DNA from: Rhodococcus sp. SGAir0479
GTDB lineage: Bacteria; Actinomycetota; Actinomycetes; Mycobacteriales; Mycobacteriaceae
DNA length: 64,000 bases
Reading direction: 5' to 3'
Assembly (NCBI RefSeq): GCF_005484805.1
Contig: NZ_CP039432.1
Span: 1,860,001-1,924,000 of the forward strand
The position numbers and the translations under genes are program-made. Every line of letters starts with the position of its first letter. Within the stretch, counting starts at the first letter, position 1. Of this stretch, positions 42,417 to 63,203 are shown piece after piece. Below the pieces are notes generated by a model. It did not search any database. It had not been told where the DNA came from and saw only the letters and a list, made by a program, of their open reading frames with translations.

Positions 42417-43724
42417 TCACGGACGACCGATGCCGCGGTAGGAGAAGCCCCCGGCCGTGACGACGGCCGGGTCGAGCACGTTTCGCGCGTCGACGACCAG
42501 GGGCCGGACCACCTCGCGCAGGGCCGCTGCCCAGTCGATCGTCCGGAACTCGGGCCATTCGGTGAGCACCACGATCACCGAGGCGCTCTTCGCGGCCAGC
42601 AGTGGTTCGTCGACCACCTGGAACGCGCCGTCGTGGTCGACGGCGGCGGCGCGCCGCGACCCGCAGGCCGGGTCGTAGGCCGTCACGGTGGCGCCGCGCG
42701 CGCACAGGTCCTGCACGACGGCCACCGCGGGCGAGTCGCGGGTGTCGTCGGTGCCCGCCTTGAACGTCAGCCCGAGGATCCCGATGCGGTGGCCGTGCAG
42801 TTCCCCCTCCGGATCGCCGGTGAGTGCCTCGGTGACGACGCGCACCAGACGCGCGCGGTGGTGGGCGTTGGCCTCGACGGCGGCCCGCACGGTGTCGAAG
42901 ACCGCCCCAGCCCGGTCGGCGGTGTCGAGCAGTCCACGGGTGTCCTTGGGTAGGCACGAGCCACCCCATCCGGGGCCGGGGGCGAGAAAGTGCCGACCGA
43001 TCCGCGGGTCCGCCGCCATCACCGCGGTCACATCCCGCACGTCGGCGCCGACGGCCTCGCAGAGGTCGGCCAGTTCGTTCGTGTAGGACGCCTTCACGGC
43101 GAGGAATCCGTTGCACGCATACTTCGCGAGTTCCGCACTGGCCCAATCTGTTCGGATGACCGGAGCGGAAATGTCGTGGTACATCTCGACGACGGCGGCG
43201 ACGGCCTCGGCCCGGCGACCGCCCACCACGATGCGGTCGGGCCGCAGGAAGTCGTCCACGGATCGTCCCTCGCGGAGGAACTCCGGATTGCTCACCACGT
43301 CGACCGGGCCGTCGCCGGCCGAGCGTTGCAGGGCGGCGGCGGTGCCCGGCGGGACCGTCGACTTCACCACCAGCACGACCGGGCCGGTGACCACATGCGC
43401 GACGGCCTCCGCCACGGAGACGACGCTCCGCAGGTCCGGGGCACCGCCCCGCCCCGACGGGGTCGGCAGACAGAGCACGACGATGCCGCATCCGGCAACG
43501 GTGTCGAGTCGGGTGTCGAACAGCAGCCGGCCGGCGCGCAGTCCGGCGGACACCAGCTGGGCCAGCCGCGGTTCCTCGATGTCCACCGACCCCCGCCGCA
43601 ACCGGGCCACCCGTGGCGCCGCGGTGTCCACGCAATGGACGACGTGTCCGAGGTGCGCGAGACACGCGGCGGTCGTCAACCCCACGTATCCGGCACCCAC
43701 GACCCCGATCCGCCGCGCCGTCAT
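42417..43724 (-). CDS. UDP-glucose/GDP-mannose dehydrogenase family protein
   Basis: 435-aa NAD-dependent sugar-nucleotide 6-dehydrogenase (UDP-glucose to UDP-glucuronate in most family members). N-terminal Rossmann motif IGVVGAGYVGLTTA, the conserved VVLCLPTP and VVSNPEFLREG segments, the catalytic Cys in GPGWGGSCLPKD, and the C-terminal GLTFKAGTDDTRDSPA. UDP-glucose is the favoured substrate because a UDP-glucuronate decarboxylase is encoded at 58.0 kb. Last gene of the heptose operon, 6 bp after the GT9 gene. Confidence 0.9.
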   Translation of the reverse strand: MTARRIGVVGAGYVGLTTAACLAHLGHVVHCVDTAAPRVARLRRGSVDIEEPRLAQLVSAGLRAGRLLFDTRLDTVAGCGIVVLCLPTPSGRGGAPDLRSVVSVAEAVAHVVTGPVVLVVKSTVPPGTAAALQRSAGDGPVDVVSNPEFLREGRSVDDFLRPDRIVVGGRRAEAVAAVVEMYHDISAPVIRTDWASAELAKYACNGFLAVKASYTNELADLCEAVGADVRDVTAVMAADPRIGRHFLAPGPGWGGSCLPKDTRGLLDTADRAGAVFDTVRAAVEANAHHRARLVRVVTEALTGDPEGELHGHRIGILGLTFKAGTDDTRDSPAVAVVQDLCARGATVTAYDPACGSRRAAAVDHDGAFQVVDEPLLAAKSASVIVVLTEWPEFRTIDWAAALREVVRPLVVDARNVLDPAVVTAGGFSYRGIGRP

Positions 43725-43730
43725 CGCCCC

Positions 43731-44651
43731 TCACCCACCCAACTGCGCCGACGCCGCCGCGACCACGCGGCCCTCGCCGATCCGGTCGAGTCCGGGGTCC
43801 AGTCGGGTGGCGTGCGGGTCGCCCCGTCGCCCCGCCCACAGCACGGTGTGCAGCCGGGCGTCGATGCGCGGCCCCCACTGCGCCGGCGGCGTCGGTCCGA
43901 ACAGCACCACCGAGGGCACCGCGAACGCGGTTGCGAGATGGGCGGTTCCGGTGTCGCCGCAGAGCACCAACCGGGCGTGGGCCACCACTGCGGCCAGCTC
44001 CGCCAGTCGGCACGGGACCGCCCGCCGGATCGGTACGCCCGGACCGACGGCACGGCAGACGGCGTCCACGAGCGCGCGCTCGCCCGGTCCGCCGGTGACC
44101 ACGACGGCGCCGCCGTACCCGGCCACCAACTCGCGGATCACGGCCCCGAACCGCGCGGCCGGCCAGCGGCGGGCGGCGCTGCCCGCCCCGGGATGCACCA
44201 CGATCGCGCCCTCGATGGGCGCGGTTCGGGGCGGGCGGATCCGTAGATCGGTCGGGTCGGCCACGACCCCGTGCCAGCCGAGCAGCCGGCACCAGCGATC
44301 CACCTCGTGCAGGCTCTCGTCCCACTCGGGTCCGTCGGCGCCGATGTCCGGATCACGGTGACACCAGAGCGCCCGCGGATCGGTGCGGCGCAACAGCTCG
44401 GTGCTCTGCGGTCCGCGGCCGTGCAGATTGACCGCCAGGTCGGGACGGTCGCAGTACGCCATCGCGCGCAGTCCCACGGTCGGCACGATGTCGTCGACGC
44501 CGCCGATCAGGCGGACGAGGTCCCGCAGGCCGATCGCGGTCGCCAGCCGCAGCCGTGCCCGCGGGCACTCGCGCCGGAGCGCCCGCACCGCCGGCACCGC
44601 GGTGAGCAGGTCCCCGAGTCCCAGCGCCCGCAGGACCAGCACGTCCTTCAC
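43731..44651 (-). CDS. heptosyltransferase-like GT9 glycosyltransferase (1)
   Basis: 306-aa GT-B-fold enzyme of family GT9 (ADP-heptose:LPS heptosyltransferase-like). N-terminal VLRALGLGDLLTAVPAVRAL matches the family's R-x-x-G-L-G-D-x-L nucleotide-facing loop; the C-terminal donor site has VVHPGAGS, VVVTGGPGE, and CGDTGTAHLA. ADP-heptose as donor is inferred from family and from gmhA/hldE in the same operon. GTG 44651 overlaps the preceding stop (GTGA). Confidence 0.87.
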   Translation of the reverse strand: MKDVLVLRALGLGDLLTAVPAVRALRRECPRARLRLATAIGLRDLVRLIGGVDDIVPTVGLRAMAYCDRPDLAVNLHGRGPQSTELLRRTDPRALWCHRDPDIGADGPEWDESLHEVDRWCRLLGWHGVVADPTDLRIRPPRTAPIEGAIVVHPGAGSAARRWPAARFGAVIRELVAGYGGAVVVTGGPGERALVDAVCRAVGPGVPIRRAVPCRLAELAAVVAHARLVLCGDTGTAHLATAFAVPSVVLFGPTPPAQWGPRIDARLHTVLWAGRRGDPHATRLDPGLDRIGEGRVVAAASAQLGG

Positions 44652-45337
44652 GGCCACGACGACTCTTCGGACGCGCACACGACCATCTCGCGGATCTCGC
44701 ACCCCACGGGCTGGCTCAGCGCGTGGACCACGGCGGCCGCCACGTCCTCCGGCCGATTCAGGTGGGCGTCGGGCGGCGGACGGTACTGCTCGGAGCGACC
44801 GTCGAAGAACGCGGTGTCCATCCCGCCCGGCACGAGGAGGGTGACGCCGAACCGGCCGGCCGTCTCGACCGCCAGCGCGCGTGTGAACCCGACGACGCCG
44901 AACTTGGCGGCGCAGTACGCGGTCGCGTCGCTCACCGCCTTCAAGCCCAACGTCGACGCGCACGTCACGATGCGCCCGGCGGGACTGGCCAGGTACGGCA
45001 GCGCGGCACGGACGACGGCCGCGGTCCCGATCAGGTCGACGGCGATCACCCGCTCCCAGTCGGACGCCGGCACCTGCTCCAGGCGGCCGCAGCAGTCGAT
45101 GCCCGCGGCGGTGAAGACACCGTCGAGCCGGCCTTCCACACCGGCCGCGAGGTCGGCGGTCGCGGCAGCCACCGCCTCGCTGTCGGCGATGTCCACCACC
45201 CGGTACGGATGCTCCGAGTCGGGCACCGCCAGATCGAGCACCAGCGGCGTCCCGCCGGCCTTGGCCACGGCGGTCGCGGTGGCGGCGCCGAGGCCGGACG
45301 CACCGCCGGAAATGAGCACGTTGCCGATGTCGGTCAC
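44648..45337 (-). CDS. short-chain dehydrogenase/reductase
   Basis: 229-aa classical SDR. NAD(P) motif VLISGGASGLGAATA, the Tyr-x3-Lys pair in YCAAKFGVV with upstream Ser in CASTLGL. Too short and of the wrong class for HldD, the ADP-heptose 6-epimerase, which is an extended SDR. It may oxidise or reduce a sugar nucleotide or the glycan precursor. 4-bp overlaps with both neighbours indicate tight coupling. Confidence 0.87.
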   Translation of the reverse strand: MTDIGNVLISGGASGLGAATATAVAKAGGTPLVLDLAVPDSEHPYRVVDIADSEAVAAATADLAAGVEGRLDGVFTAAGIDCCGRLEQVPASDWERVIAVDLIGTAAVVRAALPYLASPAGRIVTCASTLGLKAVSDATAYCAAKFGVVGFTRALAVETAGRFGVTLLVPGGMDTAFFDGRSEQYRPPPDAHLNRPEDVAAAVVHALSQPVGCEIREMVVCASEESSWP

Positions 45338-46782
45338 GGATTCCTCCCTTCGGACCCGAGACCGGTGCGGTCCCGGAATGCTTCCCGCTGCGATGCGATC
45401 GCGGCGACGACCTTGGTGGTCGAGTAGTCACCGAGCACCGGGACCACTCGCACGTCTCCCCCGTACCGGCGGACCACGTCGGCCTCCGGGAGGTCCGCCG
45501 ACCGGTAGTCGCCGCCCTTGACCCATACGTCCGGCCGCAGCCGCGCGAGCAACCGCGCCGGTGTGTCGTCGTCGAAGACCGCGACGGCGTCGACGGCGTC
45601 GAGCTCGCGGAGCATCGCGGCGCGCGCATCCTGCCCGAGCACGGGGCGGCCGTCGCCCTTGAGCCGGCGGACGGAGGCGTCCGAGTTGAGGCACACGATC
45701 AGCGCGTCCCCGAACGCGGCCGCCTGGTGGAGGAGCCGGAGGTGACCCGGGTGCACGATGTCGAAGCAGCCTCCGGTCGCGATCAGCCGACCGCCCCGGG
45801 CCCGTACCGCGTCGGCCACCGCGCACGCGTCGGCGCAGTTGCGTTGCGGGCGGTGCAGCCGGCGCGAGGTTCCCACCCGGTCGGCGGTGGCCATGGCTCC
45901 CGCCCCGCCGGCGGACACGAACCGCGACGCGTGGTCTACCGCCATCGCGACGGCCGCCGGCATCGACGCGCCCGTGGCCAACGCGGCCGCGGCCGCGGCC
46001 GCGAACCGGTCGCCCGCACCGCAGGTGTCCGGACGACCGACCCGCAACGTCACGGGCACGTCCGGCACCGGCACGGCGCGCGGCCGCCGCCCCCGTTCGA
46101 TCACGATCGCGCCCCCCGCGCCCTGCGTGACGGCCACCGCCGCCGTTCCCCACTTCTCGATCAGGCGGCGGGCGGCCTCGGCGGGCGCGAGCACCTCGGA
46201 GCCGGCGCCCAGCGCGCCGTATGCCTCGCGCAGGTTCGGGGTGACCAGCGCGCACTCGGCCGGCGGCACCTCGCCCCGCGGATGGGGATCCCAGACCACC
46301 GGCACATCCGCGGCCCGCGACCGCAGCAGGGACCGGAGGCCGCGGTGGCGGGTGGTGCCGCGCCCGTAGTCGGCGACGACTACCGCGTCGGCGCGTGCCA
46401 GAGCCTCCGCGGCCGCGGGTGGGACGGCCACGTCAGCGGTGACCCCGTCCCCCGAGTCGATCCGCAGAAGGTGCTGGACGTCGGTACGGACGCGCGTCTT
46501 GGTCACCGTCGTTCCCGTCAGCGGGAGCGGCGCGACGGTGCAGTGCGCGGAGACGAGGTCGACGAGTCGTCGGCCGTCGGCGTCCGCGCCCACCGCGGTC
46601 ACCAGCACCACGTCGTCGACGTCGCGGGCGGCCAGCACCGCCGCCAGCGCGGCGCCACCCGGACGGACCCGAATGTCGTCGGCGTCGAGAACGGGTACCG
46701 GGGCCTCGGGCGACACGCGGTCGACGTGGCCTTCGAGATCCACGTCGAGGACGGAATCGCCGAGCACCACGACGCGGGTCAC
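45334..46782 (-). CDS. hldE: bifunctional heptose-7-P kinase / heptose-1-P adenylyltransferase
   Basis: 482-aa HldE-type protein with both domains in the usual order. N-terminal PfkB/ribokinase-fold kinase (residues ~1-310): LGDSVLDVDLEG near the start, GGAALAAVLAARDVDD, and the substrate/ATP site VGRPDTCGAGDRFAA. C-terminal nucleotidyltransferase (~345-470) with GGCFDIVHPGHLRLL, the HxGH motif, then KGDGRPVLGQDARAAML. It makes D-glycero-D-manno-heptose-1,7-bisphosphate and later ADP-heptose. GTG 46782 overlaps the gmhA stop. Unusual for a Gram-positive-type genome. Confidence 0.9.
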   Translation of the reverse strand: MTRVVVLGDSVLDVDLEGHVDRVSPEAPVPVLDADDIRVRPGGAALAAVLAARDVDDVVLVTAVGADADGRRLVDLVSAHCTVAPLPLTGTTVTKTRVRTDVQHLLRIDSGDGVTADVAVPPAAAEALARADAVVVADYGRGTTRHRGLRSLLRSRAADVPVVWDPHPRGEVPPAECALVTPNLREAYGALGAGSEVLAPAEAARRLIEKWGTAAVAVTQGAGGAIVIERGRRPRAVPVPDVPVTLRVGRPDTCGAGDRFAAAAAAALATGASMPAAVAMAVDHASRFVSAGGAGAMATADRVGTSRRLHRPQRNCADACAVADAVRARGGRLIATGGCFDIVHPGHLRLLHQAAAFGDALIVCLNSDASVRRLKGDGRPVLGQDARAAMLRELDAVDAVAVFDDDTPARLLARLRPDVWVKGGDYRSADLPEADVVRRYGGDVRVVPVLGDYSTTKVVAAIASQREAFRDRTGLGSEGRNP

Positions 46783-47351
46783 GGGGCGCTCCCCAGGGCC
46801 GCGTCGATCTCGGCGCACAGCGCGTGCACCAGTACCAGGTGTATCTCCTGGACGGTCGACACGCTCGGCGCGTCGACCGGTATCGACTCGTCGACCAGTG
46901 ACGCCAGCGGATTGGGTTCGCGGCCCGTCATCGACCACGTCGTGACACCGAGTTCGTGGGCCGCCTTCGCCGCGGTCAGCACGTTGGGGCTTCGGCCGCT
47001 GGTGGACAGGCACAGCAACACGTCGCCGGTCCTGGCGTGCGCACGCACCTGCCGCGCGAACATCTCGTCCAAGCCGTAGTCGTTGGCGATCGCCGTGGCG
47101 GACGACGTCTCGGCGTGCAACGCGATCGCCGACAGCGGTCTGCGCTCCCCTTCGAAACGACCGACGAGCTCCCCCGTCAGGTGCTGCGCTTCGGCCGCAC
47201 TGCCGCCGTTTCCACATGTCAACAACCTGCCACCGTCGGACAGGACGGCGGCGAGGTGCCGGCCCCACCGCGCGAGGCGGGGGGTCGACGTCACCACCCC
47301 GTCCAGGGCCGCGTGCAGGCGCGCTGCGTGATCGTCGAGATGCTCCGACAT
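46779..47351 (-). CDS. gmhA: phosphoheptose isomerase (SIS domain)
   Basis: 190-aa SIS-domain isomerase converting sedoheptulose 7-phosphate to D-glycero-D-manno-heptose 7-phosphate. Sugar-phosphate loop TCGNGGSAAEAQHLTGELVG and LCLSTSGRSPNVL, with the GmhA-specific zinc-ligand His in HLTGEL and a late HLVLVHALC. ATG 47351 chosen because GGAGG lies 5 nt upstream. First gene of the heptose operon and directly preceded by a SigF-type promoter match. Confidence 0.92.
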   Translation of the reverse strand: MSEHLDDHAARLHAALDGVVTSTPRLARWGRHLAAVLSDGGRLLTCGNGGSAAEAQHLTGELVGRFEGERRPLSAIALHAETSSATAIANDYGLDEMFARQVRAHARTGDVLLCLSTSGRSPNVLTAAKAAHELGVTTWSMTGREPNPLASLVDESIPVDAPSVSTVQEIHLVLVHALCAEIDAALGSAP

Positions 47352-47384
47352 GGATGCCTCCGGTTCCGCGTGGGCGTCCACCGG

Positions 47385-47409
47385 CTACCCGGGCACGGAG
47401 GCGTCAAAC
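47385..47409 (-). promoter_or_regulatory. SigF/SigB-type promoter of heptose operon
   Basis: On the minus strand GTTT (47409-47406), 15 bp, GGGTAG (47390-47385), 33 bp before gmhA. Consensus -35 and near-consensus -10. Confidence 0.6.
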
Positions 47410-47438
47410 ACCGACCTTGCGGATTCCCGCCGGAGGGC

Positions 47439-47462
47439 GTGAGATCCCGGAATCCGGGGTAC
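47439..47462 (+). promoter_or_regulatory. weak SigF/SigB-type promoter match
   Basis: GTGA (47439-47442), 14 bp, GGGTAC (47457-47462). The -10 ends 8 bp before the ATG of the flavodoxin-like gene, which would give a leaderless transcript. Weaker spacing than the other matches. Confidence 0.3.
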
Positions 47463-47470
47463 CCGTGGTC

Positions 47471-48079
47471 ATGACTGCACCGACTGCACTGGTCCTCGTC
47501 TGCACCCTCAAACCCTCACCGGCACCGTCGAGCAGCGATCTGATCGCCCGGCAGGTCCTGGCCGAACTCGACAAGCACGGCGTGTCCGGACGCGCCATCC
47601 GGGTGGTCGACCACGACATCGCCCCCGGCGTCCAGCAGGACATGGGAGACGGCGACGAGTGGCCGACGCTACGGCGGGCGGTTCTCGACGCCGACATCCT
47701 GGTGATCTCGACGCCCACCTGGCTCGGGCAGATGTCCAGTGTCGCCAAGCGCGTCCTCGAGCGGCTCGACGCCGAACTGTCCGAGACGGACGAGGACGGC
47801 CGCCCCATTCTGTTCGACAAGGTCGCGACGGCCGCCGTCGTCGGGAACGAGGACGGCGCGCACGCAATAGTGGCGAACCTGTTCCAGGCGCTGAACGACC
47901 TGGGCTTCTCCGTGCCCGCGCAGGGCTGCACGTACTGGAACGGCGAGGCGATGACGCCCGGGGACTACAACGACCTCGACCAGATCCCGGACGCCGTCGC
48001 CGCCACCAACGCGACCATGGCCGCCAACGCCGCGCATCTCGCTCGCGTCCTCGGGGAACAGCGTTACCCGGCTTCATGA
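47471..48079 (+). CDS. flavodoxin-like NAD(P)H:FMN reductase family protein
   Basis: 202-aa flavodoxin-fold protein. N-terminal CTLKPSPAPSSSDLIA forms the phosphate-binding loop for FMN, and STPTWLGQMSSVAKRVLERLD is the second flavin loop. The closing region with GEAMTPGDYNDLD is unusual for simple reductases. Partner and substrate unknown. ATG 47471; the weak SigF-type match lies just upstream. Divergent from gmhA. Confidence 0.83.
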   Translation: MTAPTALVLVCTLKPSPAPSSSDLIARQVLAELDKHGVSGRAIRVVDHDIAPGVQQDMGDGDEWPTLRRAVLDADILVISTPTWLGQMSSVAKRVLERLDAELSETDEDGRPILFDKVATAAVVGNEDGAHAIVANLFQALNDLGFSVPAQGCTYWNGEAMTPGDYNDLDQIPDAVAATNATMAANAAHLARVLGEQRYPAS

Positions 48080-48120
48080 CGGCGGCACCGCCGCCCGCGT
48101 CGTGACGGCGGCACCGCCGC
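48077..48120. repeat. direct repeat pair
   Basis: TGACGGCGGCACCGCCGC occurs at 48077-48094 and 48103-48120 (26-bp period). Each unit is internally palindromic (GCGGC-ACC-GCCGC class), overlaps the flavodoxin-like gene stop, and ends 2 bp before the DUF6480 stop on the other strand. Could serve as a convergent terminator. Confidence 0.6.
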
Positions 48121-48121
48121 G

Positions 48122-48542: not shown

Positions 48543-48576
48543 CGGGGACGCGTCTCCCATGTACGGAGGAACGGTC

Positions 48577-53948: not shown

Positions 53949-54839
53949 ATGGCCCGCACCACCGTCGTCATCGCCACCCGGGACCGTCCGGTGGAGCTCG
54001 CCCGCACACTTTGCCGGTTGCGTACCGATCTGCCGGGAACACCGGTCGTGGTGGTGGACAACGCCTCGGCCGACCCGTTGGAGCCTTGGATCGCTGGGCA
54101 GTACCCCGACGTCGAGGCGATTCGGCTGGAGTCCAACCGCGGCGCCGCGGGCCGCACGGTCGGCGTGCGGCGCGCGCGGACCGAGTTCGTCGCCTTCTGC
54201 GACGACGATTCGACGTGGGATCCGGGCGCCGCCGCCGTCGCGGAACGAACGTTCGACGCTTATCCGACGTTGGGCCTGCTCGCCGCGCGCACACTCGTCG
54301 GCGAGGACCAGCGGCCCGACGCCATCACACCCGCGCTCGCCACCAGTCCCCTCCCGAGCATGCGTCCCCTGCCCGGACCGCGGGTCCTCGGCTTCCTCGC
54401 GTGTTCGGCGATCGTGCGCCGCCACGCGTACCTCGGTGCGGGTGGGTTCGATCCCCTCCTGCACTTCGCCGGGGAGGAGCGGCTGCTGGCGCTCGACCTG
54501 GCCGCGCGGGGATGGGATCTGTGTTACCTCCCCGAGTTGATCGCGCGGCACCATCCCTCGGACATTCGTCCACCGTCGGCGTGGCGTCGGCGCCGCGAGA
54601 TGCGCAACGATGCGCTCACCGAGTGGATGCGCCGGCCCGTGGGCGTCGCCCTGGGGTCCACGGCGCGCCTGGTCGGCCGTGGACTCACCGACGCGAGCGC
54701 ACGCGGCGCGGCGAGCGACGTACTGCGACTCCTGCCGTCCGCGCTGAGCCGCCGTCGCCCGCTGCCCGCGCCCGTCGAGCGGGACGTCCGTCTTCTCGAG
54801 AAGCATCCGCCCGGCACCCCGGCGGAGGTGTCGCCGTGA
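53949..54839 (+). CDS. GT2 family glycosyltransferase (1)
   Basis: 296-aa GT-A-fold enzyme using a nucleotide-sugar donor. N-terminal TTVVIATRDRPVELARTL, then FCDDDSTW (metal-binding D-D-D) and EERLLALDLAARGWDL, the acceptor/ED region. No membrane helix. GGGAGG precedes the ATG. It lies 40 bp after gvpK, so read-through from the gas-vesicle operon is likely. Confidence 0.87.
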   Translation: MARTTVVIATRDRPVELARTLCRLRTDLPGTPVVVVDNASADPLEPWIAGQYPDVEAIRLESNRGAAGRTVGVRRARTEFVAFCDDDSTWDPGAAAVAERTFDAYPTLGLLAARTLVGEDQRPDAITPALATSPLPSMRPLPGPRVLGFLACSAIVRRHAYLGAGGFDPLLHFAGEERLLALDLAARGWDLCYLPELIARHHPSDIRPPSAWRRRREMRNDALTEWMRRPVGVALGSTARLVGRGLTDASARGAASDVLRLLPSALSRRRPLPAPVERDVRLLEKHPPGTPAEVSP

Positions 54840-55729
54840 CGGACCGGACCACCGTCGTCGTCATCACCCACAACCGCCGCGACGAGCTCGAACGCACCCT
54901 GCACGCGATGACAGCTCTCCCCGACGCCGCCCCGATCATCCTCGCCGACAACGGATCCGGCGACGGCAGCGCGGACATGGTCGAAGCCGAGTTCCCCGAG
55001 GTCACCGTCCTCCGGTTGCCCCGCAATCTCGGTGCGACGGCCCGGAACCTCGCGGTGGAGCGTGTGACCACGCCGTACGTCGCGTTCTGCGACGACGACA
55101 CGGTGTGGCAACCCGGCGCGCTCACCACTGCCGCGGATGTCCTGGACCGGTACCCGGGGCTCGCCACGGTGACCGGCCGGTGCCTCGTCGCGCCGTCACT
55201 CGCGGAGGATCCCCTCACTCCCGAACTGCGGTACTCCCCCGTCGTCGGTCCGGACTGGATGCCGGGACCGACGCTGCTGGGCATCATGGCCGGGTTGACG
55301 ATGATCCGGTGCCGGGCGTTCCGCGAGGTGGGTGGCTTCGAGCCGCGGATGTGGCTCGGGGGCGAGGAGGAACTGCTCGCGCTGGACCTGGCCGCCGCGG
55401 GCTGGTGGATGTGCTGGCGCGAGGACGTGGTGATCCATCACCGGCCGTCGCAGGTGCGCGACGCGCGGCGACGCCGCCAACTCGGCATTCGCAACACGCT
55501 CTGGACGCTGTGGTTGCGCCGGCCGGTCCGCTCCGCGTTGCGCCGATCCGTCCAGATCCTCAGGTCCGCGCCGGCGGATCGATACACCGTGCTGGCGGTC
55601 GCGGAGGCCGCTCGGTCCGCGCCCTGGGTCGTCCGCAACCGTGCGGTCGTCCCGGCGGCCGTGGAGGCGGGCCTCCTCGCGCTCGAGGACTCCCAGGTCC
55701 GTTCCACCGCCCGCCGGTACGTGGGCTGA
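54836..55729 (+). CDS. GT2 family glycosyltransferase (2)
   Basis: 297-aa GT-A glycosyltransferase. N-terminal TTVVVITHNRRDELERTL, the metal-binding FCDDDTVW, and GEEELLALDLAAAGWWM. Clearly a sister of the preceding gene (similar blocks in the same places), probably from duplication, so they may transfer related sugars. GTG overlap (GTGA). Confidence 0.87.
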   Translation: MTDRTTVVVITHNRRDELERTLHAMTALPDAAPIILADNGSGDGSADMVEAEFPEVTVLRLPRNLGATARNLAVERVTTPYVAFCDDDTVWQPGALTTAADVLDRYPGLATVTGRCLVAPSLAEDPLTPELRYSPVVGPDWMPGPTLLGIMAGLTMIRCRAFREVGGFEPRMWLGGEEELLALDLAAAGWWMCWREDVVIHHRPSQVRDARRRRQLGIRNTLWTLWLRRPVRSALRRSVQILRSAPADRYTVLAVAEAARSAPWVVRNRAVVPAAVEAGLLALEDSQVRSTARRYVG

Positions 55730-55781: not shown

Positions 55782-55805
55782 GTTTGAACCCCGCGGAATC
55801 GGTAA
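55782..55805 (+). promoter_or_regulatory. weak SigF/SigB-type promoter match
   Basis: GTTT (55782-55785), 14 bp, CGGTAA (55800-55805) in the only sizeable gap (86 bp) of the glycan operon. The -10 ends 10 bp before the next start. Weak match. Confidence 0.3.
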
Positions 55806-55815: not shown

Positions 55816-56817
55816 ATGAGTGCTCGCGGCGACGCCCGGAACATCCTGGTCTGGCACGTGCACGGCTCGTGGCTCGACGCCTTCGTCCGCGGCGGCCATC
55901 GGTATCTGGTGCCCACCCTTCCGGGGCACGGGCCGTGGGGACGCGGCCGGATGGGACGCGACTGGCCGGCCGAGGTCGTGGAGGTAGGACCGCGCGAACT
56001 CGAAGACGCCGACGTGGACGTCGTCGTCGCCCAGAACCCGGGCGAGATCCCGCTCGCGACGCGGTGGCTCGGCCGCACCCCCGGCCGGGACGTGCCCCTC
56101 GTGTACGTCGAGCACAACACACCCGGCGGGCACGCCCCGACGTCCCGCCACCCGATGGCGGACCGCGACGACCTCACACTCGTCCACGTCACCCACTTCA
56201 ACCGGGTCATGTGGGACACCGGCCGCACGCGGACCCGCGTCGTCGCGCACGGGGTCGTCGATCCCGGCGCCCGCTACCGCGGACGCCTCCCCCGCAGCGC
56301 CACGATGATCAACGACCCGGTCCGCCGTTGGCGCGCGGTGGGGACCGACCTGTTGCCGCTGCTGGCGTCCGCCGCGCCGATCGACGTCTTCGGCATGCGC
56401 ACCGGTGAGCTCGCCCACCGGACCGACATCCCGCCGCTGGTCACCCCGTGTGGAGACCTCCCCCGCGACCGCCTGCACGACGCCGTCGCCGAGCGAAGGC
56501 TGTACCTGCACACCGCCCGGTGGACGTCGCTGGGGCTCTCGCTGGTCGAGGCGATGCTGCTGGCGATGCCGATCGTCGCCCTCGCCAGTACGGAGGTGGC
56601 GGTCTCGGTTCCCCCCGAGGCCGGGGCGGTCGCGACGGACCCCGCACGCATGGTCGCCGCCGCCCGCGACTACATGGACGATCCGGAGGCCGCGGCCGAG
56701 GCGGGCCGGCGTGCGCGCACGTACGCGCTCGCGCACTTCGCACTCGACCGATTTCTCCGCGACTGGGACGACGTCCTCGACGAGACCGCACGCCAACCGC
56801 TGTTGTCCAGGAGGTAG
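55816..56817 (+). CDS. GT4-like glycosyltransferase (1)
   Basis: 333-aa GT-B-like enzyme. N-terminal ILVWHVHGSWLDAFVRGGH, VYVEHNTPGGHAP in the middle and a C-terminal donor domain with SLGLSLVEAMLLAMPIVALAS, the E-x-M-x-x-x-P-I-V pattern of GT4. Shorter than most GT4 proteins. ATG 55816; the preceding gap holds a weak promoter match. Confidence 0.78.
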   Translation: MSARGDARNILVWHVHGSWLDAFVRGGHRYLVPTLPGHGPWGRGRMGRDWPAEVVEVGPRELEDADVDVVVAQNPGEIPLATRWLGRTPGRDVPLVYVEHNTPGGHAPTSRHPMADRDDLTLVHVTHFNRVMWDTGRTRTRVVAHGVVDPGARYRGRLPRSATMINDPVRRWRAVGTDLLPLLASAAPIDVFGMRTGELAHRTDIPPLVTPCGDLPRDRLHDAVAERRLYLHTARWTSLGLSLVEAMLLAMPIVALASTEVAVSVPPEAGAVATDPARMVAAARDYMDDPEAAAEAGRRARTYALAHFALDRFLRDWDDVLDETARQPLLSRR

Positions 56818-56820: not shown

Positions 56821-58038
56821 ATGAAGATCGCGATGGTCTCCGACCACGCCAGCCCTCTCGTCGCGATGGGCGGGGTGGACACCGGTGGACAGAACGTCCA
56901 CGTCGCGGCCCTGTCGGCGGCGCTCGTCGGACGCGGTCACCAGGTGGAGGTGTTCACCCGACGCGACGACACCGTGCTGCCCGATCGGGTGCGCGCCGAC
57001 GACGGCTACGACGTCGTGCACGTGCCCGCAGGGCCGCCGCGGCGGATCCCCAAGGACGAGTTACTGCCCCACATGCAGGAATTCGCGTGCGGCCTGCGCG
57101 AGCATTTCGCGGAGGCGGAGTTCGACGTGGTGCACTCGCACTTCTGGATGTCGGGTCTCACCGCACGTCTCGCGAGTCGCGCGTGCGGCATTCCACTCGT
57201 GCACACCTTCCACGCACTCGGCATCGTGAAGAAGCGGTATCAGGGGGCCGCCGACACCAGCCCGCCGCAACGCGTTTCGCTCGAGTGCAAGATCGGTCAG
57301 AGTGCCGACGCCGTCGCGGCGACGTGCTCGGACGAGGTGTTCGAACTGGTCCGGATGGGCATTCCGCGCGCCCGGATCGCCGTGGTTCCGTGCGGAGTCG
57401 ACACGGCGGAGTTCCGCCCGGACGGCCCCCGTGCCCGCCGGACCGGGAGGCTGCGCCTCACCACGGTGGGACGACTGGTACGCCGCAAGGGGTTCGACGT
57501 CGCAATCCGAGCGTTGACCGCGCTTCCCGACGCCGAACTGGTGATCGCGGGCGGGCCCGCGGCCGGCGCGGTGTGCGAGGACGACGAAGGTGGCCGACTG
57601 CTCCGTCTCGCCGAGGAGATCGGGGTACGTGAGCGGGTCGCGATGCCCGGCCAGATCCCCCGCAGCCGCATGCCCGAACTCCTGCGGTCGAGCGACGTGG
57701 TCGTGTGCTCCCCGTGGTACGAGCCGTTCGGCATCGTGCCGCTCGAGGCGATGGCGTGTGGAAAACCCGTCGTCGCCAGCGCCGTGGGCGGACTCACCGA
57801 CACCGTCGTCGACGGAGTGACGGGCATGCACGTTCCGCCGCGCAACTCCGATGCACTGGCACGCGCCCTGCACCGGCTGCTGGCCCAGCCGGTCCAACGG
57901 GAGCAGTTCGGTCACGCGGGCCGGGACCGTGCGGTGCAACGGTATTCGTGGAATCGCGTGGCCGGTGAGACCGAACGGGTCTACGAGAACGTGCTCGGGC
58001 AGCTGATGCCGCGGGCCGCGGGCGGGGTGGGCCGATGA
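56821..58038 (+). CDS. GT4 family glycosyltransferase (2)
   Basis: 405-aa GT-B retaining glycosyltransferase, MshA/sucrose-synthase-like. N-terminal DTGGQNVHVAALSAALV (donor/acceptor glycine loop), HSHFWMSGL, TVGRLVRRKGFD, and the E-x7-E motif EPFGIVPLEAMACGKPVV. Probably adds a hexose to the glycan. 3 bp after the previous gene. Confidence 0.9.
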   Translation: MKIAMVSDHASPLVAMGGVDTGGQNVHVAALSAALVGRGHQVEVFTRRDDTVLPDRVRADDGYDVVHVPAGPPRRIPKDELLPHMQEFACGLREHFAEAEFDVVHSHFWMSGLTARLASRACGIPLVHTFHALGIVKKRYQGAADTSPPQRVSLECKIGQSADAVAATCSDEVFELVRMGIPRARIAVVPCGVDTAEFRPDGPRARRTGRLRLTTVGRLVRRKGFDVAIRALTALPDAELVIAGGPAAGAVCEDDEGGRLLRLAEEIGVRERVAMPGQIPRSRMPELLRSSDVVVCSPWYEPFGIVPLEAMACGKPVVASAVGGLTDTVVDGVTGMHVPPRNSDALARALHRLLAQPVQREQFGHAGRDRAVQRYSWNRVAGETERVYENVLGQLMPRAAGGVGR

Positions 58039-59030
58039 GCACCGGCCGGCGGCGGGGGCCACGTCGGGTCGTGGTGACGGGCGGCGCCGGTTTTCTGGGC
58101 CTGCACCTGTGTACGCGCCTGGCCCGGCGCGGGGATTCGGTGATCTGCGTGGACGACTTCTCGACGTCGGCGCCGTGGGCCCGCTCCACGTTGAGTGCCC
58201 TCGACCGGGTCACGGTGATCGACAGTTCGGTGACCGATCCACCGGTCCTGCCGCGTCGGATCGATCTCCTCGTGCACCTCGCGTGCCCGGCGTCGCCGCG
58301 GGACTACCAGAACGACGCCGTCGGCACGCTGGTGACCGGCGGACTGGGCACCCTCGAGATGCTCGACCGTGCCCAGGCGTCCGGCGCGCGTTTCGTCCTC
58401 GCCTCGACGAGCGAGGTGTACGGCGACCCGGACGTGCATCCGCAACCGGAAGCCTATCGGGGCAACGTCGATCCGGTGGGCCCGCGCAGCATGTACGACG
58501 AGGCGAAACGATTCGCTGAGGCGCTCGCGTCCGCGTTCCGCCGCCAGCACGGGACCGACACCGCCATCGTGCGCATCTTCAACAGCTACGGGCCGGGAAT
58601 GCGGGCCGACGACGGGCGGATGGTGCCGGCGTTCGTGTGCGCGGCCCTCGACGGTCGGCCGCTACCGGTGGCCGGGACCGGACGGCAGACCCGGTCGCTG
58701 TGCTACGTCGACGACACCGTCTCGGGGATCATCGCGCTGGCCGACAGCGATCATCCCGGACCGATCAACATCGGCTCTGCGCACGAGGTCTCGGTGCTGG
58801 ACGTCGCCGCCACGGTCAACCGCATCGCGCATTCGGATGCGGGTGTCCGCTTCGTCCCGGCGGCACCCGACGATCCACGGCGCCGGTGCCCCGACGTGGC
58901 TCTGGCCCGTCGCACGCTCGGCTGGCACGCGCGAGTGTCCCTCGAGAACGGACTGCGGCGCACGGTCGAGTGGTTCGCCCGGCCCTCCCGGGACCGGACG
59001 TACACGGCAGGGGGTTTCCGGTGCGGGTGA
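58035..59030 (+). CDS. UDP-glucuronate decarboxylase-like (UXS family)
   Basis: 331-aa extended SDR producing UDP-xylose from UDP-glucuronate. NAD motif VVTGGAGFLGLHLC; the UXS-type HLACPASPRDYQ, STSEVYGDPDVHPQPEAY, GNVDPVGPRSMYDEAKRFAE (Tyr-x3-Lys) blocks are nearly exact. The UDP-glucose dehydrogenase at 42.4-43.7 kb would supply the substrate. ATG overlaps the preceding stop. Confidence 0.9.
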   Translation: MSTGRRRGPRRVVVTGGAGFLGLHLCTRLARRGDSVICVDDFSTSAPWARSTLSALDRVTVIDSSVTDPPVLPRRIDLLVHLACPASPRDYQNDAVGTLVTGGLGTLEMLDRAQASGARFVLASTSEVYGDPDVHPQPEAYRGNVDPVGPRSMYDEAKRFAEALASAFRRQHGTDTAIVRIFNSYGPGMRADDGRMVPAFVCAALDGRPLPVAGTGRQTRSLCYVDDTVSGIIALADSDHPGPINIGSAHEVSVLDVAATVNRIAHSDAGVRFVPAAPDDPRRRCPDVALARRTLGWHARVSLENGLRRTVEWFARPSRDRTYTAGGFRCG

Positions 59031-60649
59031 TGGGTGTCAACGCGGTCTTCCACGACCCGGCCGCGGCGGTCGTGGTGGACGGCCGAGTGGTCGCGGCGGC
59101 GGAGGAGGAACGCTTCAACCGACGCAAGCACGGCAAACGCCCGTACGCGTTCTCGACGTGGGAGCTCCCCGAGCAGGCGATGCGTTGGTGTCTGGCGGAA
59201 GCCGGGATCACCGCCGCGGACCTCGACGCGGTCACCTACTCGTACGATCCCGGCCTCGTCGAGCCGGACCTGGCCGGCACGGAGCAGGACTGGGAGTTCC
59301 TGCGCACGTTGTACGCGGAGCGTTTCCCGCGCTTCCTCACCACCGCGTTGCCCGGGGTCGATCCGTCCGTCGTGCGCTTTCTCCCCCACCACCTCGCGCA
59401 CGCGGCGTCGGCGGCGCTCGCGTCCCCGCACCGGGACTGCGCGGTCCTGGTGGCCGACGGCCGCGGCGAGTCCACGTCGTATCTGGCGGGCGAGTTCCGG
59501 GACGGGAAGTTCACGCCCCTCGCGTCGCAGCGTCTGCCCCACTCGTTGGGCCTGATGTACGAGGAGCTGACCGAACATCTCGGGTTCGCGCGGTCGAGCG
59601 ACGAATACAAGGTGATGGCGCTCGGCGCGTACGGGACGCCGCGGCTGTTGCCCGAGTTCGAACGCCTCGTGACCACCACCGGGCACGGGACGTTCCGCGT
59701 CGCGCCGATCGACTGGGCGTCACTGGCGCCGCGGCGGCGACCGGAGGAGCCGTGGTCGCCGGCGCACGCGGATCTCGCGTGCAGCGCGCAGCGCCGCCTC
59801 GAAGACGTCCTGCTCGAGCTCGCGGGCTGGTTGCACGCGCGAACCGGCCACCCGCTCCTGACGTTGGCCGGCGGGGTGGCTCTCAACTGCGTGGCCAACA
59901 CGCGTCTGCACGCGGAGGGCCCGTACGACGAGGTGTGGGTGCAGCCGGCGTCCGGCGATGCCGGTACCGCGCTCGGCGGTGCGCTGCTGGCGGCCGCGGA
60001 ACTCGGCGACACGCCGCGACCCCGGCCCGGATACGACCTGGGGCGCGGCTGGACGGACGCCGAACTCGAGCACGCACTGCTGGCCGCGGCCGTGCCGTAC
60101 GAGCGTCCCCCCGACATCGCCGAGACCGTCGCCGAGGCTCTGGCCCAGGATCGGATCGTCGGGTGGTTCCAGGGCCGCGCGGAATTCGGGCCCCGTGCCC
60201 TGGGGCGCCGCTCGCTCCTGGCACATCCGACGCCGGCCGCGAACATCGACCGCCTGAACGCGGTGAAGGGACGCGAGCAGTTCCGTCCCGTCGCGCCCAT
60301 GGTCGCCGCCGACCGGGCGGCGGAGGTCTTCGGGCGCGGACCGGTGCCGAGCCCGTACATGCTGTTCGTGCACGACGTGGCGCCGGACTGGCAGGACCGG
60401 CTGGCCGCGGTGACCCATGTCGACGGCACCGCCCGGGTTCAGACCGTCGACCCGCGGACCGAACCGCTGGTCTCCCGCATGCTCGCCGCCTTCGAACGCC
60501 GGACTGGGGTTCCGGTGGTGGTCAACACCAGTTTCAACACCGCGGGGCGACCGATGGTCGACTCCCCCCGGGACGCACTCGAGTGCTTCGGGTCCGCACC
60601 GATCGACCTGCTCGCGCTCGGTCCCTACGCGGTTCGGAGACCGACATGA
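59021..60649 (+). CDS. carbamoyltransferase (NodU/TobZ family)
   Basis: 542-aa O-carbamoyltransferase. N-terminal Kae1-like domain: GVNAVFHDPAAAVVVDGRVV, AAEEERFNRRKHGKRP, and the metal-binding H-H-x3-H of LPHHLAHAASA; the RSSDEYKVMALGAYG block. The C-terminal YrdC-like part has FGPRALGRRSLLAHP and NTSFNTAGRPMV. It uses carbamoyl phosphate and ATP to decorate sugars or small molecules. GTG 59021 chosen (GGGGG 6 nt upstream). Confidence 0.92.
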   Translation: MRVMGVNAVFHDPAAAVVVDGRVVAAAEEERFNRRKHGKRPYAFSTWELPEQAMRWCLAEAGITAADLDAVTYSYDPGLVEPDLAGTEQDWEFLRTLYAERFPRFLTTALPGVDPSVVRFLPHHLAHAASAALASPHRDCAVLVADGRGESTSYLAGEFRDGKFTPLASQRLPHSLGLMYEELTEHLGFARSSDEYKVMALGAYGTPRLLPEFERLVTTTGHGTFRVAPIDWASLAPRRRPEEPWSPAHADLACSAQRRLEDVLLELAGWLHARTGHPLLTLAGGVALNCVANTRLHAEGPYDEVWVQPASGDAGTALGGALLAAAELGDTPRPRPGYDLGRGWTDAELEHALLAAAVPYERPPDIAETVAEALAQDRIVGWFQGRAEFGPRALGRRSLLAHPTPAANIDRLNAVKGREQFRPVAPMVAADRAAEVFGRGPVPSPYMLFVHDVAPDWQDRLAAVTHVDGTARVQTVDPRTEPLVSRMLAAFERRTGVPVVVNTSFNTAGRPMVDSPRDALECFGSAPIDLLALGPYAVRRPT

Positions 60650-62172
60650 CCGATCCGAGCTACACGATCGTCGTGCCCACGGTGCTGCGGCCGAGTCTGC
60701 ACACGCTGCTGGCGGCGCTCGCCCGGACCGCCGGCCCGCGGCCGTCGGAGATCGTCGTGGTGGTCGATCGTCCCGCCGCCGGTCCGCACGGCGGGCCGGA
60801 GTCCGAGTGCGGCGCGGTTCCCGTCCGGTGGCTGTCGTCGGGAGGCCGGGGGCCGGCGGCCGCCCGCAACCGGGGTTGGCGTGTCGCCCGGGATCCGTGG
60901 GTCGTCTTCCTCGACGACGACGTCGTGGTGCCCCACGACTGGGCGCGGCGGCTGGCCGCGGACCTGCGCCCACTCGGCCCGGAAGTGGCCGCCTCGTACG
61001 CCCGCATCGACGTTCCCGCGCCGGTCGGACGGCGTCCCACCGACGACGAGCGCCGCACGCTGAGCCTGCAGACGGCGCGATGGATCACCGCCGACGCGGC
61101 GGTGCGACGGTCCGCGTTGCTCGCGGTCGGCGGCTTCGACGAACGATTCCCGCGCGCCTACCGCGAGGACGCGGATCTGGCCCTGCGCCTCATGGCCGCG
61201 GGCTTCACCCTCACCGACGGCGCCCGGGTCACCCGGCACCCCGTGGGAGCGACGCGAGTGCTCTCGAGCGTCCGCGCCCAGGCCGGGAACGCCGACAACG
61301 CGCTGATGCGGCACCGCCACGGGCGCGGCTGGCGGCGGCGAGCGGGCGACGGGCCCGGCCGGTCGGGCCGGCACGCGGCGACGACCGCGGTCGCGGCGAT
61401 CGCGCTGGGCGCCGCCGCGACCGGACGCCGACGCACCCTGGCGATCGCGTCGACCGTGTGGCTCGCTGCCGTGGCGCAGTTCGCGGTCCGACGGATCGCC
61501 CCCGGGCCCCGCACGGCGCGGGAGGTCGCCGCGATGGTCGCGACGAGTGCGCTCATCCCGCCCGTCGCCGTCTGGCATCGCCTTCGCGGTGAGGTCGGAG
61601 TCCTGCGCGGCGGGACCGTGGTGCGGTCGCCCGTGCTGGCAGTCCTGTTCGACCGGGACGACACGCTCATCCACGACGTGCCGTACCTCGCGGATCACCG
61701 TGCGGTACAGCCCGTCCCGGGAGCCCACGATGTGCTGGCCCGCCTGCGCGCGGACGGGATCCTCGTCGGGGTGGTGACCAACCAGTCGGGCGTGGCGACC
61801 GGGCGGATCACCGTCGACCAACTCCGCGCGGTCAACGACGAGGTGGAACGCCGGCTGGGCAGGTTCGACACCTGGCAGATCTGCACGCATGCCGACGGCG
61901 GGCGCTGCTCCTGCCGTAAACCCCTGCCCGGCTTGGTCTTACGAGCAGCCGCCGATCTCGGGGTGCCGCCGGAGAGTTGTCTGATGATCGGGGACACCGG
62001 GGCCGACGTCGAGGCGGCCCGCGCCGCCGGGGCCGTCGGGGTGCTGGTTCCGACTGCCCGAACGCTCGGACGCGAAGTCGTGCGGGCGCGGGCCGCGGGC
62101 GCGTTGGCCGACAATCTTGCCGCTGCCGTCGCGGTCATCGGCCTGGGCCGGGACGGGACCACCGACCGGTGA
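60646..62172 (+). CDS. GT2 glycosyltransferase fused to GmhB-type HAD phosphatase
   Basis: 508-aa fusion. Residues ~1-240: GT2 with FLDDDVVVPHDW and GGFDERFPRAYREDADLALR. Residues ~245-325: hydrophobic/Arg-rich linker. Residues ~330-480: HAD phosphatase with VLFDRDDTLIHD (Asp336, Asp338), VVTNQSGVATG, the zinc-type Cys/His set C413-x-H415...C421-x-C423 and MIGDTGADVEAA. The zinc motif and length identify GmhB (heptose-1,7-bisphosphate 7-phosphatase), the third heptose enzyme. ATGA overlap with the carbamoyltransferase gene. Confidence 0.88.
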   Translation: MTDPSYTIVVPTVLRPSLHTLLAALARTAGPRPSEIVVVVDRPAAGPHGGPESECGAVPVRWLSSGGRGPAAARNRGWRVARDPWVVFLDDDVVVPHDWARRLAADLRPLGPEVAASYARIDVPAPVGRRPTDDERRTLSLQTARWITADAAVRRSALLAVGGFDERFPRAYREDADLALRLMAAGFTLTDGARVTRHPVGATRVLSSVRAQAGNADNALMRHRHGRGWRRRAGDGPGRSGRHAATTAVAAIALGAAATGRRRTLAIASTVWLAAVAQFAVRRIAPGPRTAREVAAMVATSALIPPVAVWHRLRGEVGVLRGGTVVRSPVLAVLFDRDDTLIHDVPYLADHRAVQPVPGAHDVLARLRADGILVGVVTNQSGVATGRITVDQLRAVNDEVERRLGRFDTWQICTHADGGRCSCRKPLPGLVLRAAADLGVPPESCLMIGDTGADVEAARAAGAVGVLVPTARTLGREVVRARAAGALADNLAAAVAVIGLGRDGTTDR

Positions 62173-63203
62173 GGGGCGACCACACACTCGTCGTGCGCCA
62201 GGACAACATCGGCGACGTCCTGCTGGCCGGTCCGTGCATCCGCGCCGCCGCCGCGGGTTCCGAACGGGTCACCGTCCTCGTCGGGCCCCGCGGCAGGGCG
62301 GCCGCCGACCTGCTGCCCGGTGTCGACGAAGTGATCGAGTGGGAGGCGCCGTGGATCGACCCGCAACCGTCGTGGCCGGGGCAGGCAGCGGTCCTGGACG
62401 TCGTCGATCGGATTCGGCGCCGCCGTATCGACCGTGCGCTGATCCTGACGTCGTTCCACCAGTCCCCCCTGCCGACCGCACTGGTGCTCCGGCTGGCCGG
62501 GGTGCCGTGGATCGCGGCCATCTCCGAGGACTACCCGGGCGCCCTGCTGGACGTGCGGCACCGGCTCGATGCCGACATCCCCGAATCCGAACGCGCACTG
62601 AGCCTCGCCCGCCGGGCCGGATTCGACCTGCCGCCCGGTGACGACGGCAGACTGCGGCTGCGCGCGGCGCTGCCCGACGTGTCCCGGCACATCGGCGCTC
62701 CCCCGTACGTGGTCGTCCACCCCGGCGCGTCGGCACCTGCGCGCACGCCCTCACGGATGTGGTGGACGCGAGTGGTGGACGCGCTGGTGGACGGCGGGCA
62801 CCGTGTGATCGTCACCGGTGGTGCCGACGAGACGGCGCTGACCCGCGCGGTCGCAGCCGACCACGCCGCCGACCTGGGCGGCCGGACCAGCCTGGCCGAG
62901 CTCGCCGCCGTGCTCCGCGGCGCCTACGCCACCGTCGCGCCGAACACCGGCGCCGCCCACCTGTCCGCGGCCGTGGGGACGCCGGTGGCGTCACTGTTCG
63001 CTCCGCTCGTGCCCGTCGAGCGGTGGCAACCGTACGGGGTGCGATGCGTCGTGCTCGGAGACCAGCGGGCACCGTGCCGAGGGACGCGAGTTCGGGAGTG
63101 CCGGCTCGCCGCGCACCCGTGCCTCGACGCGATCGAGCCCGAGGAGGTGACCACCGCCGTCGAGACGCTGTCGACACCCGTCGGCCTGGGAAATCCGCGG
63201 TGA
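62169..63203 (+). CDS. heptosyltransferase-like GT9 glycosyltransferase (2)
   Basis: 344-aa GT9. N-terminal LVVRQDNIGDVLLAGPCIRA matches the R-x-D-N-I-G-D-x-L family loop; C-terminal VVVHPGASAPARTPSRMWW, VIVTGGADET and NTGAAHLSAAVGTPVASLF form the donor site. With the first GT9 it provides two heptosyltransfer steps. Two Cys in RAPCRGTRVRECRLAAHPC near the end are unexplained. GTG 62169 overlaps the preceding stop (GTGA). Confidence 0.9.
   Translation: MRGDHTLVVRQDNIGDVLLAGPCIRAAAAGSERVTVLVGPRGRAAADLLPGVDEVIEWEAPWIDPQPSWPGQAAVLDVVDRIRRRRIDRALILTSFHQSPLPTALVLRLAGVPWIAAISEDYPGALLDVRHRLDADIPESERALSLARRAGFDLPPGDDGRLRLRAALPDVSRHIGAPPYVVVHPGASAPARTPSRMWWTRVVDALVDGGHRVIVTGGADETALTRAVAADHAADLGGRTSLAELAAVLRGAYATVAPNTGAAHLSAAVGTPVASLFAPLVPVERWQPYGVRCVVLGDQRAPCRGTRVRECRLAAHPCLDAIEPEEVTTAVETLSTPVGLGNPR

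Follow-up and report, generated by a model that had tools for sequence, protein, structure and literature searches.

An actinobacterial locus predicted to make a heptose glycan and apparently transcribed by SigF/SigB-type sigma factors

Introduction

What might an actinobacterium do with ADP-heptose? Heptose nucleotides are usually taken as a Gram-negative signature. The vertebrate receptor ALPK1 detects them (PMC11573728); the authors of that paper note the broad occurrence of the enzymes and how little is known of what they do in their producers, and look to adjacent genes for possible hints. The question is raised by a 64,000-nt stretch of the chromosome of Rhodococcus sp. SGAir0479 (contig NZ_CP039432.1, C1:1860001-1924000 of the 4.97 Mb genome; hereafter the window), in which an earlier reading, made from the letters only (the sequence-only reading), had recognized an ADP-heptose route divided between two operons. 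The present computational analysis suggests that these genes are probably one copy of an old, widespread actinobacterial locus of about 13 genes for a general-stress heptose glycan.

Results

The arrangement described in the sequence-only reading was confirmed by profile searches: gmhA, a fused hldE and a glycosyltransferase (GT) gene of family GT9 run leftward, while a GT2-GmhB fusion and a second GT9 gene run rightward about 13 kb away, and positions 42417 to 63203 do cover the locus. The genes it named are present, but its list left out the Ugd-type dehydrogenase and a classical short-chain dehydrogenase (SDR) among the leftward genes and six of the rightward ones, namely two genes each for GT4s and GT2s plus those for a UDP-glucuronate decarboxylase and a NodU/TobZ-type carbamoyltransferase. 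Within each part most neighbours share 1 to 4 bases, the overlap typical of operons. The genes of the locus are (window positions, strand):

42417..43724, minus: Ugd-like nucleotide-sugar dehydrogenase (UDP-glucose type); TIGR03026 E 2.8e-119; TuaD model 337 bits, below cut-off; PF03721, PF00984, PF03720
43731..44651, minus: GT9a, putative ADP-heptose glycosyltransferase; PF01075 E 6.1e-19; D-T-G-x-x-H-L motif retained
44648..45337, minus: SDRc, classical short-chain dehydrogenase; PF00106 E 5.6e-31
45334..46782, minus: HldE, heptose-7-phosphate kinase fused to heptose-1-phosphate adenylyltransferase; TIGR02199, TIGR02198, motifs
46779..47351, minus: GmhA, sedoheptulose 7-phosphate isomerase; TIGR00441, PDB match
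53949..54839, plus: GT2a glycosyltransferase; PF00535 E 2.3e-13
54836..55729, plus: GT2b glycosyltransferase; PF00535 E 5.2e-21
55816..56817, plus: GT4a glycosyltransferase; PF00534 E 2.1e-6, 27.8 bits (cut-off 26.4)
56821..58038, plus: GT4b glycosyltransferase of the MshA / sucrose-phosphate-synthase-like group; TIGR03449, TIGR02472, PDB 6kih
58035..59030, plus: UDP-glucuronate decarboxylase (UDP-xylose synthase, UXS); PDB 2b69, 277 bits
59030..60649, plus: NodU/TobZ-type O-carbamoyltransferase (Carb); PF02543, PF16861
60646..62172, plus: GT2 fused to a GmhB-type HAD phosphatase (GT2:GmhB); TIGR01656, TIGR00213, PDB match
62169..63203, plus: GT9b, divergent GT9 with Asn replacing the Asp of the D-T-G motif; PF01075 E 1.9e-22

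The locus encodes homologues for each of the four enzyme steps that lead from sedoheptulose 7-phosphate to ADP-D,D-heptose, as the sequence-only reading had proposed. GmhA was assigned to the isomerases on its match to TIGR00441 (E 2.9e-47; 160.6 bits, below the cut-off of 209.45) and on a phosphoheptose isomerase as its top match in the PDB (E 3e-43). The nucleotidyltransferase domain of HldE reached exactly the cut-off of TIGR02199 (181.5 bits), its nearest solved relative being listed as a putative cytidylyltransferase; the kinase domain matched TIGR02198 with E 8.8e-41 (140 of 345 bits, below the curated cut-off) and has a heptose enzyme as nearest solved relative. With the GAGD and HxGH motifs present, HldE was classed as kinase plus adenylyltransferase. 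The GmhB domain, which forms the C-terminal part of a GT2 protein, scored above the cut-off of TIGR01656 and below that of TIGR00213 (E 1.6e-17). It was classed as a phosphatase, its best PDB match being a heptose-1,7-bisphosphate phosphatase (E 2.2e-14); it carries DxD and CxH...CxC motifs, which presumably have their familiar roles there. A search for HldD in the whole genome gave four matches, all below the cut-off (the best with 108.1 of 274.6 bits), in agreement with the sequence-only reading, and an L,D branch was thus not recognized. The extended SDR at 58035-59030 was considered as the missing HldD and rejected, since it scored 277 bits with a UDP-glucuronate decarboxylase (PDB 2b69) versus 124 for the next other family. 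As no HldD lies above the cut-off, ADP-D,D-heptose may be used directly, without 6-epimerization.

The published motif for nucleotide promiscuity is (F/L)xxGRSTT (PMC11573728), while according to the accessible portion of PMC11461863, STTR5 is not strictly required for promiscuity. The window HldE reads V-L-G-D-Y-S-T-T at this site and so departs from the motif at three positions. The exact motif is present in 11 of 95 HldE relatives, in which the Arg position is occupied by Tyr (54), Arg (36), His (4) or Gln (1). The substitution of Tyr for Arg predicts a preference for ATP.

The sequence-only reading had taken ADP-heptose to be unusual outside Gram-negative bacteria; this rarity does not hold up. 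Presence is patchy, with 80 of 394 genomes of the class above the cut-off for the HldE nucleotidyltransferase domain; in the window's genus, 2 of 14 genomes have an HldE at E 1e-60 or better. The literature describes heptose enzymes as widespread among bacteria and knows of one use in septacidin of Streptomyces (PMC11573728; PMC11461863, accessible portion). In some genomes a pair of HldE-type genes occurs, separated by about 5 to 11 kb (G038:C1:4223784 and 4234428; G187:C11:461175 and 466152). Distant-type HldE loci, with about 37% identity to the window HldE, often have an adjacent GT4a-like gene.

Conservation was analysed in the best 80 of at least 585 confirmed loci (593 candidates), chosen by HldE similarity, and in a second set of 16 further loci, giving 96 stretches in all. 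Locus genes were located by tblastn with the window proteins; other genes were called by a heuristic based on GC content by codon position, from which small genes may escape. Eleven locus genes were scored (two GT4s, UDP-xylose synthase, carbamoyltransferase, GT2:GmhB, GT9b, gmhA, hldE, SDR, GT9a and UDP-glucose dehydrogenase) in the 82 'long stretches', those of at least 19 kb around related hldE genes. At least nine of the 11 genes were found within about 20 kb in 66 of the 82, all 11 in 31, and only two in two stretches; both halves of the locus were present in 68. Apart from HldE, present in 82/82 by selection, the most frequent genes were GmhA (79), GT9a (75), GT9b (75), SDRc (74), GT4b (74) and GT4a (70), followed by Carb (67), UXS (66), GT2:GmhB (64), Ugd (43), GT2a (39) and GT2b (21).

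At least nine of the genes formed a single same-strand run, with gaps of up to 300 bases, in 47 of the 82 long stretches, and all 11 did so in nine. In Nocardia the genes are arranged GT4a-GT4b-UXS-Carb-GT2:GmhB-GT9b-GmhA-HldE-SDRc-GT9a-Ugd; several Amycolatopsis have GT2:GmhB and GT9b a few kb beyond Ugd, and Streptosporangiaceae and Thermomonosporaceae show a different order. The division into two operons, given as a feature in the sequence-only reading, was therefore rejected as the typical layout on the gene orders in relatives. It reflects an interruption by gas-vesicle genes shared with a sister species, which has the same split, with gas-vesicle genes directly before GT2a-GT2b-GT4a and a longer gap to gmhA. 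A quick HldE+GmhA tree, made without bootstrap and with rows all from Actinomycetota, clustered by genus (27 genus labels required 30 changes, the minimum being 26). A recent transfer from Gram-negative bacteria was considered and dropped on this clustering within Actinomycetota. Two genera of the window organism's family fell among Mycobacterium and Nocardia, and the window row stood on a long branch with no well-supported place. A pyruvyltransferase-like gene was located near the locus in 19 of the 96 stretches (e.g. L091:1984-3222; one member was Pfam-tested); in the window, none was noticed at the locus.

The accessible portions of two papers give the M. smegmatis SigF consensus as GTTT-N14-19-GGGTA (PMC4694148) and GGWWT-N16-17-GGGTAY (PMC7693655). 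The pattern used here was exact GTTT-N14-16-GGGTA. The window has a single match (chance 0.06), which lies ahead of gmhA and qualifies as a promoter site of this type for spacings of 14-16; at the other end of the locus lie genes for an anti-sigma and a sigma factor:

47386..47409, minus: SigF/SigB-type promoter site GTTT-N15-GGGTA, 35 bases ahead of the gmhA start
63292..63732, plus: RsbW-like anti-sigma factor (HATPase_c_2); PF13581 E 3.3e-9
63729..64000, past the window end, plus: SigB/SigF-family sigma gene, 5' part; TIGR02980; genome 1923825-1924496

The anti-sigma gene follows GT9b, and the ATG of the sigma gene overlaps its stop codon. The sigma gene escaped the GC-based heuristic and was recovered by the profile search (TIGR02980, 294.5 bits, above the cut-off); the genome contains three SigB/SigF-family sigma genes above the cut-off. 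A SigBF-like gene was present in 22 of the 96 stretches, 13 of them Mycobacterium-type (34 to 62% identity); matches of 34-40% identity in Micrococcaceae and Leucobacter may correspond to other sigma-70 family members. The sister species keeps the gmhA-side site with altered spacer letters, the only one in 39.8 kb. In the 80-locus set, 111 sites were found versus 3 of the reversed motif. Spacers of 14, 15 and 16 bases accounted for 13, 81 and 17 sites; no other spacer between 4 and 30 had more than 7 (range 0 to 7). Of the 111 sites, 65 lay at most 200 bases upstream of a locus gene and none was located deeper than 60 bases within one; when the letters of the motif were permuted in 79 ways, the average was 10 sites, with 1.6 upstream. 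The 16-locus set contained 30 sites, 19 of them upstream of locus genes. Over the 96 loci, 84 sites in 49 loci preceded a locus gene, lying no more than 200 bases from its tblastn start; the genes concerned were those of the carbamoyltransferase (29), UXS (19), GT2a (19), GT4a (12) and GT2:GmhB (5). Upstream sites were present in 18/18 Mycobacterium-type loci, 10/11 of Amycolatopsis, 8/10 of Nocardia plus 1/1 in the 16-locus set, 3/3 of Prauserella, 2/2 of Saccharopolyspora, 1/1 of Saccharomonospora, 4/8 of Actinomadura, 1/2 of Actinophytocola and 1/3 of Sphaerisporangium. As background, six whole genomes (5.0 to 7.5 Mb) contained 47 to 73 sites each (11 to 20 for the reversed control), and the genome of the window 38, versus 4 of the reversed motif. 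Taken with the gene neighbourhood, these promoter sites suggest that in Mycobacterium-type genomes, Nocardia and much of the Pseudonocardiaceae a SigF/SigB-type sigma factor transcribes the locus. An aside on stress conditions in the sequence-only reading proved apt. A sigma-70 scan of positions 47000-64000 gave no promoter-like sites, a result of little weight for a GC-rich actinobacterium.

GT9a and GT9b are the only two PF01075 matches in the genome (E up to 0.001), and both score above the cut-off. Their best scores with the WaaC/WaaF equivalog models are 65.7 of 185.3 bits and 45.7 of 134.6 bits, respectively. GT9a keeps an Arg-Trp-Pro stretch and the D-T-G motif, the latter conserved in an 85-row alignment. 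GT9b matches WaaF (E 8.2e-17) and WaaC (E 4e-15, over profile positions 2-279 of 339), and on these profile matches it is a member of GT9. The claim of two heptosyltransferases is not borne out in that form: GT9a, a putative one, retains the motif of ADP-heptose transferases, but for GT9b, with its Asn, the donor is unproven. The GT4b protein scored 256 bits with TIGR03449 (MshA; cut-off 462.5) and 103.6 bits with TIGR02472 (sucrose-phosphate synthase; below cut-off). Its nearest solved relatives are 6kih ('Tll1590 protein', 220 bits), which we take to be a cyanobacterial sucrose-phosphate synthase, and then 3c4q/3c48 (181 bits), presumably MshA. The usual active-site Ser, Tyr and Lys of SDRs (S128, Y141 and K145 in SDRc) are invariant in 31 rows; a role of SDRc as epimerase was rejected, as the matches listed (60 of 136 profile matches) were assorted SDRs with no epimerase by name. 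UXS is a UDP-glucuronate decarboxylase and, together with the Ugd-type dehydrogenase, should yield UDP-xylose. The carbamoyltransferase matched decarbamoylnovobiocin carbamoyltransferase (E 1.6e-94) and also TobZ; by analogy with WapO of Pseudomonas (see Discussion), a carbamoyl-heptose is no more than a guess as its product.

The sequence-only reading expected a surface or secreted glycan, which is not supported as stated, because export genes do not recur there. A candidate hydropathy span, probably buried as judged by eye, was seen once each in GT4a and Ugd and in no other locus protein. Hydropathy, recurrence and the heuristic gene calls revealed neither a flippase, exporter or polymerase nor a priming transferase or ligase, and no unassigned family with at least two predicted spans is shared by more than 6 of the 96 stretches; the locus thus does not class with those for exported surface polysaccharides of the Wzx/Wzy or ABC type. 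The lack of a conserved membrane family leaves a soluble oligosaccharide, a glycolipid of the cytosolic face, or a glycan exported by machinery coded elsewhere.

Further features lie between the two halves of the locus or, in the case of the last, within the rightward half:

47471..48079, plus: NADPH-dependent FMN reductase-like gene, divergent from gmhA; PF03358
48424..53908, plus: gas-vesicle gene cluster interrupting the glycan locus; PF00741 twice, PF06386 twice
48518-48541: one-mismatch SigF-like site in the gas-vesicle cluster
55782..55804, plus: one-mismatch SigF-like site, 12 bases ahead of GT4a; weak by itself

The FMN reductase-like gene is probably outside the heptose pathway. The first gene of the gas-vesicle cluster has no Pfam match and an uncertain start (48424 or 48559). 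GT2a starts 40 bases after the last gene of this cluster, and control may be common. Past the sigma gene (genome C1:1923001-1943000) comes a region with many stress-type genes: a STAS anti-anti-sigma gene (Pfam) and, by eye, CsbD-like, manganese-catalase-like and SDR genes; three more exact SigF-type sites lie at genome positions 1927153, 1931710 and 1936316. The possibility of a defence system was rejected, as none of the six proteins tested had a PADLOC match.

Discussion

The arrangement described above is consistent with the following model. GmhA, HldE and the GmhB domain would provide ADP-D,D-heptose which, with no HldD, would go in without 6-epimerization. Ugd and the UDP-glucuronate decarboxylase would supply UDP-glucuronate and UDP-xylose. 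GT9a, probably GT9b, and the GT2s and GT4s would join the sugars into a short heteroglycan on the cytosolic side. Its carbamoylation, perhaps on heptose, would fall to the NodU/TobZ-type enzyme, and SDRc would modify a sugar. In Mycobacterium-type genomes, Nocardia and much of the Pseudonocardiaceae, the locus would be transcribed by a SigF/SigB-type sigma factor; in the window's genus a gas-vesicle cluster inside the locus would make it look like two operons.

Several observations weigh against this explanation. The HldE kinase domain, GmhA, GmhB in TIGR00213 and both GT9s score below the NCBI equivalog or subfamily cut-offs. In GT9b, Asn-258 stands in place of the D-T-G Asp, presumed here to be catalytic in GT9, and is invariant in 33 rows (GT9b and 32 orthologues). 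The 80-locus set is the top by HldE similarity, not a random draw. The promoter motif was spotted in the window before being searched for, the relatives being the independent test. Two letter permutations scored high: GTTT/GGTAG, with 43 upstream matches in the 80-locus set, and TTTG/GGGTA, with 14 in the 16-locus set; these may well be the same sites, one base off. The exact site is found only on the gmhA-side half, the rightward half having one-mismatch sites only, and, counting overlaps, the whole window has 22 sites that differ from the motif by one letter or none. Eight of the 38 sites of the genome correspond to a pair repeated four times (C1:1003319, 1808387, 4249769 and 4607028, with partners about 4.1 kb away). 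Discounting them leaves 30; since the copy checked (1002500-1008500) sits in 16S and 23S rRNA genes, such pattern counts need rRNA masked. Finally, upstream sites were absent in Streptomyces (0/1, plus 0/2 rows of g28), Micrococcaceae (0/7), Microbacteriaceae (0/4), Nonomuraea (0/7), Microbispora (0/3), Streptosporangium (0/2), Lentzea (0/2), Frankiaceae (0/1) and others, so that SigF control is not universal.

Where the glycan acts is a matter on which the explanations divide. That it is a heptose-containing surface polysaccharide or glycolipid, a Gram-positive counterpart of the lipopolysaccharide (LPS) core exported by machinery coded elsewhere, is well possible, if short of an even chance. 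UDP-glucuronate and UDP-xylose are common envelope donors, GT9 is the family of the LPS core heptosyltransferases, and a pyruvyltransferase-like gene accompanies a fifth or so of the loci, as counted above. Further, a putative carbamoyltransferase, WapO, is credited in the accessible portion of PMC8005017 with carbamoylating the core heptose of Pseudomonas LPS. The absence of any recognized export, polymerase or ligase gene, and of a recurrent multi-span family, argues against it. Those same absences, along with the SigF-type sites, would suit a soluble cytosolic oligosaccharide, a stress protectant begun on a sugar phosphate by GT4b, the nearest solved relatives of which were given above; both MshA and sucrose-phosphate synthase use soluble sugar phosphates as substrates. 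The accessible portion of PMC5563000 adds that, in a salt-tolerant Frankia, a gene annotated as ADP-heptose:LPS heptosyltransferase is up about threefold under salt, and that a SigF-type sigma gene also rises. However, the heptosyltransferase gene is only a possible orthologue and the sole Frankiaceae locus in the set has no SigF-type site; GT4b falls below the MshA and sucrose-phosphate-synthase cut-offs and also matches the polysaccharide enzyme EpsE (128 bits), and seven transferases are many for a solute. This explanation is regarded as unlikely.

Two further explanations dispense with a stress glycan of heptose. The enzymes could have been taken over for another sugar phosphate, with ADP-heptose no longer made, as the families below curated cut-offs and the three departures of the window HldE from (F/L)xxGRSTT might suggest; since GmhA, HldE and the GmhB domain co-occur in most relatives with conserved motifs, this appears improbable. 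A secondary metabolite cluster, aminoglycoside- or septacidin-like, is more improbable still. ADP-heptose is used for septacidin in Streptomyces (PMC11461863, accessible portion) and the best solved relatives of the carbamoyltransferase are antibiotic-tailoring enzymes, but no gene for making an aglycone was recognized in the locus, the promoter sites are of the general-stress type, and the locus is conserved within many genera and clusters by genus on the tree.

The stress-glycan locus shares features with several known systems. With the known ADP-heptose route it has in common the isomerase, the fused kinase/adenylyltransferase and the phosphatase; it differs in having no HldD above the cut-off, in the fusion of GmhB to a GT2, and in including a carbamoyltransferase and a UDP-xylose synthase. 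The Pseudomonas LPS inner core (WaaC/WaaF, WapO) likewise associates GT9s and a carbamoyltransferase with heptose, but no ligase or Kdo gene was recognized in the window locus and GT9b belongs to a divergent subfamily. The M. tuberculosis GDP-heptose pathway (GmhA, HddA, GmhB, HddC; PMC7705670, accessible portion) also leads to a heptose nucleotide in an actinobacterium, whereas the window has the ADP branch via a fused HldE. The M. smegmatis SigF regulon shows the same promoter consensus and an rsbW-sigF pair, while the terms 'heptose', 'phosphoheptose' and 'carbamoyl' do not occur in the main text of PMC4694148, as far as it is accessible. Among open-licence papers, no publication on this locus was found, including in searches on the promoter consensus and on carbamoyl-heptose; as far as that literature shows, the link of the heptose locus to the SigF/SigB stress system is not in print.

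A more specific form of the proposal, advanced tentatively and still doubtful, is that the locus makes an ancient general-stress glycan of D,D-heptose, probably with xylose or glucuronate and carbamoylated, which would be made entirely in the cytosol and induced by SigF/SigB in many genera; it would possibly be a protective oligosaccharide or a glycolipid of the cytosolic face. If true, ADP-heptose would have a new role here, distinct from both LPS and antibiotics. A heptose locus that is stress-linked and conserved in several actinobacterial families would be a hint of the kind called for in PMC11573728.

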